DNA from: Sandaracinus amylolyticus
GTDB lineage: Bacteria > Myxococcota_A > Polyangia > Polyangiales > Sandaracinaceae
Length of the DNA stretch: 64,000 nt
Assembly (NCBI RefSeq): GCF_000737325.1
Contig: NZ_CP011125.1
Span: forward strand, 9,238,001-9,302,000
Reading direction: 5' to 3'
How positions within the stretch are numbered: the first letter of the stretch is position 1; every line of letters starts with the position of its first letter. Positions 6,664 to 17,522 of this stretch are shown one piece after another. Position numbers and translations under genes: made by a program. The notes below the pieces were generated by a model. That model saw nothing but the letters and a program-made list of their open reading frames with translations, ran no database searches and was not told the origin of the DNA.

Positions 6664-7596
6664 GTGCCGGTTCATCGCGTCATCGCGCTCTCGAGCGCAG
6701 AGGGCTTTACGCGCGGTCTGGGGCGTGGCGCGAAGGAGCTCCTTCCCGCGCTCGACGATGTGACCGGGGGCGCGGTGCTGCTCCGGTTCGCTGGCCGGAG
6801 CGACAGCGCGCGACGTCGTTTTCGAGGGGCCGCAGAGCCGCGTCTCGTGGCGATCGAGCGCGGCGACATTGCACGGCTGCATTACGAGGCGCCGGCGCTC
6901 GGCGAGGCGCTTCCCGACCTATATCGGCAAACCACGCTGCTGCCGCTCTACCCCCCGCGGGAGTGGACCGCGTTCGAGCTCGTCGCCGAGTCACTCCGGG
7001 ACGTGCATGCGGCCAACGCTGACAGCGATCGCTTCGATCAGGCCTGGTTGCGTGACGTGCGAGCGCTGAAGACGGCGCTGAAGCATGGCGTACGACGTGT
7101 CGAGCTCGTCGACGTCGCGGAGACGCTGCGCCCGGGCGCCATCCTGGACGAAGACACGGTGCGAATCGCAGGCGAGCTCGCTTCCCGCATCCCGAAGCCC
7201 AGAGCGGCACGGATCGTCGGAAAGCTCGACATGATCCGCCATAGCACACCGTCGTTCGAGCTGGTGCTCGATGACGGATCGCGCGTGCGCGGCGTGTTGA
7301 CGGGGACCGAGACCGATTCGTTGCAGGCGCTCTTCGGCCACCGTGTCGTGATCGACGGTCGCGTTGTGTATCGCGCGTCGGGCCGACCGCTTCGCGTGGA
7401 AGCACGCTCCGTCAGCGACGGAACCGGCGAACCCGCTGTGTTCTCGCGCGTGCCCGGGCCGCGTCAGATCGCGAAGTCGAGCCGGGGGCGTTCTCAAACC
7501 GAACATACCGGCGTGAACGCGATATGGGGCCGCTGGCCGGGTGACGAGAGCGAGCAAGAGCTGCTCGCGCAGCTCGCGGAGCTGCGTCGGACGTGA
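6664..7596 (+). CDS. Large putative antitoxin partner of a PIN nuclease
   Basis: 310 residues, GTG start with a GGAGG site 5-10 bases upstream. Three parts can be seen: an alpha/beta N-terminal region (1-170) with no recognised family; a strand-rich segment (about 181-248) with IVGKLDMI, FELVLDDGSRVRG and GHRVVIDGRVVY, which looks like a small OB-type barrel; and a C-terminal helix with GRWPGDESEQELLAQL. The last motif resembles the WxGDE(S/T)-acidic tail common in short antitoxins paired with PIN toxins. Its stop overlaps the PIN gene's GTG start by four bases (GTGA), so the two are coupled. Base composition is visibly lower in GC than the neighbours. Confidence 0.65.
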   Translation: MPVHRVIALSSAEGFTRGLGRGAKELLPALDDVTGGAVLLRFAGRSDSARRRFRGAAEPRLVAIERGDIARLHYEAPALGEALPDLYRQTTLLPLYPPREWTAFELVAESLRDVHAANADSDRFDQAWLRDVRALKTALKHGVRRVELVDVAETLRPGAILDEDTVRIAGELASRIPKPRAARIVGKLDMIRHSTPSFELVLDDGSRVRGVLTGTETDSLQALFGHRVVIDGRVVYRASGRPLRVEARSVSDGTGEPAVFSRVPGPRQIAKSSRGRSQTEHTGVNAIWGRWPGDESEQELLAQLAELRRT

Positions 7597-8033
7597 GCTC
7601 TCGAGTATTCCTGCTCGACACTAGCATCCTCCTCCCGATCGCACGGGGCGGACCCATCGCGAGCCGGCTCGAGCGGAGCTACGGGCTGCGCGCGTCCGGT
7701 CCGACACCGCTCGTGAGTGTCGTCTCCGAGGCTGAGCTACGCGTGATGGCGGATCGGAACAGCTGGGGTCCGAGGAAGCGCGCCGAGATCGATCGGCTGT
7801 TCGATGAGCTCGTCGTGATCGATATCGGGAGTCCTGAGGTTATCGATCGATACGTCGCGCTCTCACGTGCGGCAGACCAGGCACGCGGAGGCGCGCGACA
7901 GCTCTCGCACAACGACTTGTGGATTGCAGCGTCTGCGGCGGCTACGAGTGCAACGCTGCTGACGGCGGATGCGGATTTCGACGTGTTCCCGGCCGAGCTC
8001 ATCAGTGTGCAGCGGATAGAACCGCTCAAATGA
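7593..8033 (+). CDS. PIN-domain ribonuclease (VapC-like toxin)
   Basis: 146 residues with the full PIN acidic set: Asp9 (LLDTSI), Glu46 (VSEAEL), Asp108 (NDLWIAA) and Asp126/Asp128 (TADADFD). PIN toxins cut RNA with Mg2+ or Mn2+ bound by these residues. Coupled to the 310-residue upstream gene, and followed by a strong terminator, so the pair forms a closed two-gene unit. The target RNA cannot be read from the sequence. Confidence 0.85.
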   Translation: MSSRVFLLDTSILLPIARGGPIASRLERSYGLRASGPTPLVSVVSEAELRVMADRNSWGPRKRAEIDRLFDELVVIDIGSPEVIDRYVALSRAADQARGGARQLSHNDLWIAASAAATSATLLTADADFDVFPAELISVQRIEPLK

Positions 8034-8140: not shown

Positions 8141-8893
8141 TCACGCTGCCGGCGTCTCGGGCTTCTCCTCCTCCTCTCCGCCGTCTTCGTCACCCTCTCC
8201 GCCTTCGTCCTCGTCCTCTTCTTCCTCGAGGTCGGGCTCGATCACCGCGCCCGTGCTCGTCTGCAGGAAGCCCATCGCCTTCAGCAGGCGGCGCTCCTTC
8301 ACCGCGACTCGCGCGATCGCGCTCCACTGCAGGTACCACTCCCACATCTCGCGCTCGGCGGTCGCGTCGTCCTCGGGATCGCGCTCGGGCTCGAGCGCGG
8401 GCTCGATCTGCGCGACCTCTTCGAGCGTCCTCTTCACCGGCGCGATCACGTCGGGCGTGAGGCCGCGCTTCGCGAGCAGGTCCATCGCTGCCTTGCCCTC
8501 GCGACCGAGGCCGCCTTCGCTCTTCGGCTTCGTCAGCCGATCGAGGCGCTCGAGGAAGGTGCGCACGTTGATGACCGCGCCGGCGCCGGTCGTCTGCGTG
8601 ATGTTGCGGAAGAGCAGCTCGTGCGCCTCGGGGTGCTTGTGCTGCAGCGTCGCGATCGCAATCGGGAACCACTCGTTCTCGAACGCATCGACGTCGTCGA
8701 CGAGCTTGGGGCTCGCCGTGATGACGACATCGAGCCGACCGCGGCTGAGATTGCTGAGGAGGTTCCAGCCGAGCTTGAGCTCGTCGCCGTCGAACCCGTA
8801 GCGCGCGAGCGCGCTGGCGATGCTGCGGTTGCGCAGCGCGAGCAGGAAGACGAGCACGCGCCTCGCCTTCTGTCCGTAGGTGAGCCTGGCCAT
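8141..8893 (-). CDS. Conserved hypothetical protein with acidic tail
   Basis: 250 residues starting MARLTYGQKAR. Residues 1-200 are predominantly helical (LLALRNRSIASALARYGF, WNLLSNLSRGRLDVV, ERRLLKAMGFLQT), and the last 40 are almost all Glu/Asp/Gly. No catalytic motif or signal peptide is seen, so it is likely cytoplasmic. The start lies about 45 bases from the left end of the 21-bp mirror array, so that array occupies its upstream region. Function unknown. Confidence 0.7.
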   Translation of the reverse strand: MARLTYGQKARRVLVFLLALRNRSIASALARYGFDGDELKLGWNLLSNLSRGRLDVVITASPKLVDDVDAFENEWFPIAIATLQHKHPEAHELLFRNITQTTGAGAVINVRTFLERLDRLTKPKSEGGLGREGKAAMDLLAKRGLTPDVIAPVKRTLEEVAQIEPALEPERDPEDDATAEREMWEWYLQWSAIARVAVKERRLLKAMGFLQTSTGAVIEPDLEEEEDEDEGGEGDEDGGEEEEKPETPAA

Positions 8894-8938
8894 GTGCGAT
8901 CCGGTCCTTCCGATGTGCGAGGTGGGTCGTTCTCGGCG

Positions 8939-9410
8939 TCCCGCGGGAGAGCCTCGAGCTCCCTGGCTTCGCGCCGACGCTCCCCTCATCGCGCGACGCA
9001 ATCCCTCGTTGCGTGCGCCGTGCACGTTCGTGCGCCGGCGGTGTCCCTCGGCTCACACACCGAGTCCCTTCGACGGCCGACGAGCTCCCTCGGCGCGCGC
9101 GTCGGGTCCCTTCGCTCGCCGACGCGATCCCTTCGCTGGCCAGCGCGCTCCCCGCGCTCGCGCGCGCCGACCCTCGAGGGGATCGCGTGCTCGATCGTGG
9201 GGATCTCGGCACGGGCGGTGGGGATCGACGCGGTCCGGCAGGGGAGTCACGAGCAGGACGAGGGGATCGCGACTTCGACGCCGGGGATCCACGAGGACGG
9301 CGAGGGGATCGAGCGGACCGACGAGGGGATCGAGCACGCGCCGAAGGGGATCGAGGCGTCGGAGCAGGGGATCGAGGAGCGCGCCGAGGGGATCGAGCCG
9401 GCCGGACCGC
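8939..9410. repeat. Mirror-symmetric 21-bp phased repeat array
   Basis: On the right side the heptamer GGGGATC (one copy GGGGAGT) begins at 9178 and recurs every 21 bases to 9388, eleven copies separated by 14 variable bases. On the left side the complement TCCC begins at 8939, 8960, 8981, 9002, 9044, 9065, 9086, 9107, 9128 and 9149 (ACCC at 9170), again in 21-base phase with one decayed unit near 9023. The halves meet at the palindrome CCCTCGAGGG (9171-9180). Read outward from the centre, both strands stay open and would give heptapeptides of the EGIxxxx/RGTxxxx type, so a coding origin cannot be fully excluded. Confidence 0.85.
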
Positions 9411-9459
9411 GGGAGCTCCGACGCGATGGAGAACATCGCGAAGCCGAACCGGTCGATCG

Positions 9460-9813
9460 CTATCCGCGGAGGATGCTCGCCATCTTCTTTCCCTTGGCGA
9501 GCTCGTCGACGAGCTTGTCGAGGTAGCGGATCTTCTGCATCAGCGGGTCGGCGACGTCTTCCACGCGCACCCCGCACACGACGCCCTTGATGAGCGCCGC
9601 GTTCGGGTTCATTCGCGGCGCTTCGGCGAAGAACGTCTCGAGGTCGACCTTGCTCTCGATCGCGCGCTGGAGCTGCTCGCCGTGGTAGCCGGTCAGCCAG
9701 GCGATGACCTCGTCGACTTCGTCCTTCGTGCGGCCCTTCTTCTCGGCCTTCTGCACGTAGGGCGGATACACGCTCGCGAACGACGTCGTGAAGATTCGCG
9801 GCTTCTTGTCCAT
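9460..9813 (-). CDS. DUF2200 family protein
   Basis: 117 residues with the characteristic family sequence: [73 protein letters not shown] and a Lys-rich tail. Full-length for the family. A small cytoplasmic protein of unknown function, common in bacteria. The internal ATG is chosen because it opens directly on the conserved block. The gene lies downstream of a hexamer repeat tract and upstream of the mirror array, as an island between repeats. Confidence 0.9.
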
Positions 9814-9914
9814 GCGCGCCGTGATCATCGGCAGCGCGCGGGTCGGCATCAAGGGCCGAGGCGGCCGAGCTCCTCGCCGGGCCCCCTCGTGGCCTCATCG
9901 CCTCAGATCTCCGA

Positions 9915-10110
9915 GCGCGTCGGGATCAGCGTCAGCGTCGGCGTCGGCATCGGTGTCCGCGTCGGTGTCGGCATCAGCGTCGGCATCAGCGTCGGTGTCG
10001 GCGTCTGCGTCTGCGTCTGCGTCGGCATCTGCGCCAGCGTCAGCGTCGGAATCAGCGTCGGCGTCCACGTCGGAATCAGCCTGAGCGTCTGCGTCTGCCT
10101 CACCGACACA
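9915..10110 (+). repeat. Degenerate hexanucleotide tract A
   Basis: About 30 tandem copies of a six-base unit NGYRTC on this strand (AGCGTC, GGCGTC, GGTGTC, GGCATC, TGCGTC and variants), decaying towards 10110. It lies in the 657-base gap between the DUF2200 and ankyrin genes. Reading frames through it give only Ser/Ala/Val repeats and have no start signals, so I treat it as non-coding. Bases 10111-10470 hold no gene or motif I can support. Confidence 0.85.
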
Positions 10111-12187: not shown

Positions 12188-12192
12188 GCGCG

Positions 12193-12322
12193 GACGCTCA
12201 CGCCGACGCTGATGCCGACACAGACGCTGACGCCGACACAGACGCTGATGCCGACACAGACGCTGACGCCGACACAGACGCTGACACGGACGCTGACCCC
12301 GACCCCGACCCCGACACCGCCC
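12193..12322 (-). repeat. Degenerate hexanucleotide tract B, with 18-bp higher order
   Basis: Tandem hexamers of the same family as tract A but on the opposite strand (ACGCTG, ACGCCG, ATGCCG, ACACAG). Three-unit blocks of ACGCTG-AYGCCG-ACACAG recur four times, giving an 18-bp superimposed period, before the tract decays into ACCCCG units. It lies between the transposase remnant and the histidine kinase gene. Confidence 0.85.
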
Positions 12323-16933: not shown

Positions 16934-17158
16934 GGCGTTGGCGTTGGCGTTGGCGTCAGTGTCAGCGTCAGCGTCAGTGTCGGCGTCCGCGTCAGCGTCA
17001 GTGTCAGTGTCAGTGTCAGTGTCGGCGTCCGCGTCAGTGTCGGCGTCAGTGTCGGCATCAGTGTCGGTGTCAGCGTCGGGTATCAGTGTCTGCGTCTGCG
17101 TCTGCGTCGGCGTCGGCGTCTGCAGACGCGTTCGCATCCGCGTCCGCCTCGGTGTCGC
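16934..17158 (+). repeat. Degenerate hexanucleotide tract C
   Basis: Begins GCGTTGGCGTTGGCG and continues as TCAGTG/TCAGCG/TCGGCG/TCTGCG hexamers for about 190 bases before decaying near 17158. Same unit family and strand as tract A. It faces tract D across about 120 bases of unique sequence, in inverted orientation. The gap upstream (16717-16933) holds a short TGACCGC-GAA-GCGGTCA hairpin near 16842 and no gene I can support. Confidence 0.85.
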
Positions 17159-17279
17159 GCGATCAGCAGCGCGTCGGGCCGGAGGTTGGTTCGGCGTCGG
17201 TCGTTCTGCGGAGCCCCGAGCAACGCAAACGGCGAGTCTCGCGCCCACGGCGTCCGGAGGACGGACGCGGAAGCAGAAC

Positions 17280-17522
17280 ACTGACGCAGAGCAGACGCTG
17301 AACGCCGACACGGACGCCGACACGGGCGCCGACGCCAACGCCAACGCCAACGCCGACGCCGTCGCCGTCACTGACGCAGACGCAGACGCAGACGCTGACG
17401 CAGACACCGACGCTGACGCAGACACCGACGCTGACGCAGACACCGACGCTGACGCAGACACCGACGCTGACGTAGACACCGACGCTGACGCAGACACCGA
17501 CGCAGACACCGACGCAGACAGT
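17280..17522 (-). repeat. Degenerate hexanucleotide tract D, with 18-bp higher order
   Basis: GACGCN/GACACC hexamers on this strand, the complement orientation of tract C. Between about 17385 and 17500 an 18-bp block GACACCGACGCTGACGCA repeats about five times with few changes, the freshest-looking part of all four tracts. The 3' end of the DUF4274 gene is encoded inside this tract. Confidence 0.85.

Follow-up and report, generated by a model that had tools for sequence, protein, structure and literature searches.

Architecture of the mirrored array

Which kind of element is formed by two opposed series of G-rich heptamers, repeated every 21 bp in front of a gene for an uncharacterised protein of 250 residues in Sandaracinus amylolyticus? 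We analyzed this locus in a stretch of 64,000 nucleotides (the window) and compared it with the remaining genome and with related bacteria. The array measures about 470 bp and is intergenic, as had been proposed in the initial annotation: It adjoins the start of the 250-aa gene at 8893 (P0002, 8141–8893, minus strand) and extends almost to the stop of a DUF2200 gene at 9460 (9460–9828, minus strand), which ends just past the right arm and is retained as a neighbor in a second Sandaracinus species.

The left arm (8939–9168, minus strand) consists of 11 units of 21 bp read outward with the core CGA(A/G)GGGA, which is kept in 10 of them. The right arm (9178–9408, plus strand) again comprises 11 outward-reading units of 21 bp, with the core GGGGATCG(AG). 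The axis is marked by the palindromic dyad GACCCTCGAGGGGATC (9169–9184), the counterpart of a GATCCCC-N(0-4)-GGGGATC pattern at the axes of sister arrays and of Polyangium arrays. On the plus strand to the right of the axis the heptamer GGGGATC(G) starts at 9178, 9199, 9220, 9262, 9283, 9304, 9325, 9346, 9367 and 9388. The one variant unit reads GGGGAGT at 9241, which leaves 10 of 11 exact heptamers and GGGGA in all 11. To the left, where the minus strand carries (C)GAGGGA or GAAGGGA (CGAGGGA or CGAAGGGA for the conserved part read outward), TCCC recurs in 21-base steps from 8939 to 9149 and is missing only at 9023. Altogether the core is kept in 21 of 22 consecutive units between 8939 and 9408. 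Of the earlier description as about 22 units in exact register the single phase stands, but one unit has lost its core.

Within 8901–9460 all 11 GGGGA and all 10 TCCC occurrences fall into one 21-bp phase each, compared to 3 (GGGGA) and 4 (TCCC) in the best of 2000 dinucleotide shuffles, which confirms the mirrored phasing about a palindrome noted before. Self-match at lag 21 is 0.479 versus 0.302 ± 0.020 in shuffled sequences (z = 8.6) and reaches 0.515 at lag 42; all remaining lags are at background level. The spacers are not conserved, left and right units of equal rank do not match each other (93 vs 88 ± 6), and neither arm contains an indel. A plain GC-skew V test proved too insensitive for a mirror layout because the spacers compensate.

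The inverted layout permits some pairing and the G-runs of the proximal arm are directed toward the gene. Both would suit an element acting as RNA, either a long hairpin or a GGGGA-repeat leader read by an RNA-binding protein. Folding of a Polyangium array is indeed somewhat better than that of its shuffles (z = -2.4), but the window array is no more stable than shuffled sequence (z = -1.0), and the lack of matching between units of equal rank speaks against paired arms. A covariance-model search of 91 kb of array loci against Rfam returned nothing at gathering score, and near the window array gave chance-level matches only, located off the array. Considering furthermore that arms are unequal in other arrays and that some arrays lie between convergent genes, we regard an RNA-level role as very improbable.

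Related arrays in Sandaracinus

The initial annotation had suggested a search for further copies, and these were found in the same genome as well as in relatives, and they retain both axis and phase. In the S. amylolyticus genome (10,327,335 bp) GGGGATC-N14-GGGGATC occurs 22 times, while the reversed control gave no match. The matches cluster in the window, at 1.7443–1.7448 Mb (L021) and at 6.7735–6.7739 Mb (L023), apart from one isolated pair. The mirror layout is common to all three loci. L021 has two or more one-base slips in its phase, which is incompatible with translation into a repeat protein.

Mirrored arrays with units of 21 or 42 bp also occupy the orthologous intergenic regions of the second Sandaracinus species (G008), one located between the DUF2200 and the 250-aa gene (L224) and another between genes for an FAD amine oxidase and a membrane protein (L210). 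At the window locus the flanking genes of both species are 88–90% identical on DNA level. The array regions share 60–63% identity, compared to about 47% for shuffled sequence. The design of the Sandaracinus arrays was retained and the letters were turned over.

The S. amylolyticus genome holds additional, apparently intergenic arrays with periods of 41–43 bp, close to four helical turns, at about 5 per 400 kb and several with palindromic units. They were seen near 1.027 Mb (L237, ~6.8–7.1 kb), 1.047 Mb (L238, ~7.4–7.6 kb), 1.167 Mb (L244, ~6.7–7.0 kb), 5.156 Mb (L253, ~15.7–16.0 kb) and 5.166 Mb (L254, ~5.9–6.3 kb).

Linkage of the arrays to the P0002 gene family

The main point beyond the initial annotation is the linkage of the array to the gene family of the neighboring 250-aa protein. 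Like arrays in G007, G005, Polyangium and G014 led to the very gene that adjoins the window array. When P0002 was used as query, homologs were detected in 38 of 144 Polyangiales genomes, in several of them within ~300 bp of arrays found earlier by DNA pattern alone. A blind search for the GGGGA-21 DNA pattern and the protein search converged on the same places in G014 (C1227, C734) and G115 (C99).

Upstream of close homologs a self-match of at least 0.60 at lag 20–22 or 41–43 was reached in 13 of 17 cases (7 of 10 if counted by genus), whereas this was the case for only 1.74% of random 900-bp windows (n = 1720, taken from G000 and G007) and for none of the 17 gene bodies. For this count a tandem pair (L343) was represented by its first copy and a divergent pair (L339) by one of its two members. 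The nominal binomial probability against the random windows is 3e-20, a value that overstates the evidence as the homologs are related. Among lags 14–45 only 21, 42 and 43 are prominent in these upstream regions. In a second set of homologs, which included other orders, 6 of 23 copies reached 0.60 (p = 2e-6); these six contain two near-identical loci of period 22 from G232, a member of another order of the class, and one AT-rich locus that may be coding (L407). In G006 two divergent family members share one mirrored array between them (L339, G006:C413), and two of the three paralogs in the S. amylolyticus genome possess a mirrored array. Upstream of the third paralog (L361) and of several distant homologs no array was detectable. 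Since upstream arrays are linked to homologs across Polyangiales and in another order, this gene family possesses a conserved cis-element: a central dyad with outward half-sites every 21–22 bp, located upstream of members of one family across the class.

Some arrays remain outside this explanation, namely one-directional GGGGA arrays of 21 bp period in genomes such as G130, for which the protein search detected no P0002 homolog. Two loci of G130 (L291, L292) carry long one-directional 21-bp arrays of the unit GGGGATCGACGATCGTCGAAC and share a flank. GTDB contigs and IMG/VR were scanned for three successive GGGATC-N15 units, which yielded mostly short-period or single-locus repeats; the sole related array recognised belongs to Polyangium sp. 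6x1. No P0002-family gene was detected in the loci from these scans, and no viral homologs of P0002 were found.

A period of 21 bp corresponds to seven codons and the window arms are free of indels, which would suit two outward-reading heptapeptide-repeat genes, an option raised in the initial annotation. Against this stand the single-base phase shifts in sister array L021, the periods of 22, 41 and 43 bp upstream of homologs and the absence of a GC3 coding signature at the array loci, and we give this option practically no credence. These indels and periods disfavor coding, and the folding value of the window array disfavors paired-arm RNA. A coding minisatellite, for which an open frame preserved from unit to unit and a period divisible by three would be expected, was rejected as well on account of the one-base shifts of L021, periods 22 and 43 and the missing GC3 signature.

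Axis and unit motifs across genera

Using runs of at least four G or C as markers, we found that a C-run/G-run palindrome recurs at the axis. In Sandaracinus and in Polyangium, a genus of another family, it often takes the form GATCCCC-N(0-4)-GGGGATC (L021, L023, L312, L313, L315, L317, L320, L322, L323, L328), with near forms in the window and at L334–L337. The axes of two paralogs of the own genus read TCGGTCCCCCGGGGACCG (L360) and TCGGTCCCCCAGGGACCG (L362). The enrichment seen in an order-wide search for the dyad pattern was not counted as evidence because the reversed control contains the rare CTAG. Unequal arms are frequent, e.g. about 10 versus 2–3 units in Polyangium, and since arms can be this unequal, strict mirror symmetry is not required.

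The unit motif differs by genus: GGGGATCG in Sandaracinus, GGGGGAnnATCGCCGGGAGC in G007, GATGAACCCGAGGGTCCCGGC in G005 and, in Polyangium, GGGGGATCACTTCCGGGAGCA mixed with GTGAAGTCGGATAC units. In 11 of 13 comparisons, arrays that are not linked to a family gene resemble the gene-linked array of the same genome more closely than every sampled random segment did; L314 (p = 0.02) and L021 (p = 0.08) did not reach this level. A motif that changes between genera and is common within a genome is the trace to be expected of a trans-acting binder whose specificity changes. When the upstream regions of five Polyangium species were aligned, invariance recurred with a 21-bp period (autocorrelation 0.41, with a further peak at 41–43), and columns of G/C-runs were invariant in 55 of 82 cases versus 67 of 172 elsewhere (p = 3e-5).

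These data also bear on the possibility that the array is a neutral minisatellite, created by slippage and inverted duplication. Tandem repeats of 21 bp are common in these genomes, some of them coding and homogeneous. In the arrays studied here, in contrast, core and phase stayed while the spacers diverged, the motif was conserved under turnover, and the same gene family follows downstream across orders. A neutral origin accordingly has an even slimmer chance than a role as RNA.

Several further observations concern the surroundings and composition of arrays. Arrays away from the family gene often appear to be located just before genes with a signal-peptide or lipoprotein start (L023, L225, L223, L232, L313, L317, L320, L321). 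Upstream of the family gene in Polyangium (L311, L319, L333–L337) two classes of units, GCTCC and GTATCC, occur in an order that is kept between species, GTATCC being spaced by ~84 bp. In G007:C65 the mirrored array is directly followed by a second tandem array with a period of 25 bp and ~26 copies, located between convergent genes (L226, 5585–6229). A large variety of homogeneous tandem repeats of 21 bp is present in G003 (L212–L221), several of them built around GAAGGCTTC and some apparently coding. Being mostly homogeneous and in several cases apparently coding, these minisatellites were set apart from the element described here.

The P0002 protein and a proposed mode of action

P0002 belongs to an uncharacterised family, is predicted to be all-helical and has an acidic tail; the conserved core of the family ends with WYxEWSxIARxxIxxRxxLxxLGF. 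A single-sequence AlphaFold model is likewise all-helical, with a pLDDT of 38 that is too poor for a fold search. Searches of Pfam, PHROGs, PADLOC and PDB with P0002 gave nothing usable. It matched no PADLOC model of anti-phage defence, for which single family members showed isolated weak matches. The NCBIfam family PQLLE (NF052641), for which we found no describing paper, matches 22 of 29 alignment members weakly (best 7e-8); P0002 itself scores 28.6 bits, far below the curated cut-off of 80 bits.

Half-sites 21–22 bp apart are separated by two helical turns, and all of them thus lie on one face of the DNA. Our preferred reading, which we hold to be somewhat probable, is an iteron-like operator array bound cooperatively by the protein of the neighboring family, which would serve autoregulation and the control of a few other loci. 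Both the identity of the binder and the autoregulation are deduced from sequence. The family protein would recognise the array motif, with a dimer sitting on the central dyad and more subunits joining in register along both arms, every two turns. The outcome may be a nucleoprotein filament or a wrapped complex that would repress the protein's own gene or adjust its expression. In addition, the protein could act on the handful of other genes preceded by arrays. A cooperative protein-binding array is the best supported of the three options raised in the initial annotation, although binding itself is to be taken as putative.

Alternatively, a different protein such as a nucleoid-associated protein or global regulator of the lineage could bind the arrays, the 250-aa family being merely its most constant target. 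No DNA-binding domain was recognised in 29 members of the P0002 family (Pfam, NCBIfam, PHROGs, PDB), arrays exist in some genomes without a detected homolog, and the GCTCC and GTATCC units of Polyangium could mean two binders. Yet the linkage to P0002-type genes persists in several taxonomic families and in two or more orders despite the change of motif, which fits a cognate binder better than a shared global regulator, and one array is common to divergent paralogs. We consider a different binder unlikely; it nevertheless ranks first among the alternatives, followed by a mobile repeat of the REPIN/RAYT kind, an RNA element, a neutral satellite and, last, a coding repeat.

More tentatively, the P0002 family may represent an undescribed kind of chromosomal DNA-binding proteins, common across the bacterial class, that nucleate on a dyad, polymerise outward in both directions on half-sites two helical turns apart, co-evolve in specificity with their motif from lineage to lineage and control their own gene and a few others, several of which encode secreted or lipoproteins. 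A large, multicopy and uncharacterised family of myxobacteria and relatives is now linked to a precise cis-element, which makes its function testable. The anatomy of a dyad with two opposed phased arms is unlike ordinary operators and satellite DNA, and the change of motif between genera combined with sharing within genomes provides a natural series in which the co-evolution of protein and DNA can be studied.

Comparison with known repeat systems

Iterons have a length of about 17–22 bp. The RepE protein of the F plasmid binds the oriS iterons as well as an inverted-repeat operator before its own gene (PMC13028717). Similarly, the arrays place direct repeats upstream of the gene of the proposed binder together with an inverted repeat as the putative autoregulatory operator; RepE-type proteins also bind iterons elsewhere, and extra arrays are present at other loci. 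Unlike iterons, which form a single direct array, arrays of the window type are chromosomal, have two opposed arms, contain 10–22 units and occur several times per genome. No match to a Rep-family initiator was obtained for 29 family members in Pfam, NCBIfam, PHROGs and PDB, and neither a replication gene nor origin features were found.

In type II partition systems ParR recognises parC, as in R1, in pSK41 (20-bp repeats) and in C. perfringens (17-bp repeats) (PMC9426499). Here as well direct-repeat arrays lie beside a gene and vary in sequence and spacing between families. Recognition is specific to the cognate pair, for which the genus-specific motif of the arrays would be the counterpart. 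In contrast to parC, the arrays are chromosomal and multi-locus. No ParM-type NTPase is encoded beside the gene, whose neighbors in the window are the DUF2200 gene and a PIN-like ORF, and profile searches of the family gave no match to ParR or ribbon-helix-helix proteins. A partition or segregation site, another option of the initial annotation, is unsupported, given the lack of an adjacent ParM/ParA-type partner and the presence of several arrays per chromosome upstream of ordinary genes. As the initiator and partition features looked for were not found, we assign the array to neither system; the nearest working analogy appears to be iteron/Rep autoregulation and, in part, ParR/parC arrays.

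RAYT genes are associated with repeats that are also dispersed extragenically and whose motif is gene-specific (PMC3116915). The arrays resemble this arrangement, and the encoded protein might spread and homogenise them as RAYT transposases do with REPINs, making the array a mobile or selfish repeat without regulatory role. The occurrence of the gene and dispersed related arrays in one genome, the rapid turnover of units and the multiple gene copies in some genomes are consistent with this. In contrast to the short hairpin doublets of REPINs, however, the arrays are long, phased and few per genome, their positions are constant between species, and conservation in orthologous arrays is concentrated on the motif. 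Furthermore, no match to a transposase, including the REP-associated tyrosine (HUH) type, was obtained in Pfam, PHROGs and NCBIfam. We therefore judge a mobile repeat improbable.

Two minor features were noted elsewhere in the window. The PIN-domain-like ORF (7593–8033, plus strand) is VapC-like by eye and convergent with the 250-aa gene. Degenerate repeats of the GCGTCG type with periods of 6, 12, 18 or 24 bp are located near gene ends at 9917–10102, 12189–12315, 16947–17128 and 17264–17519.
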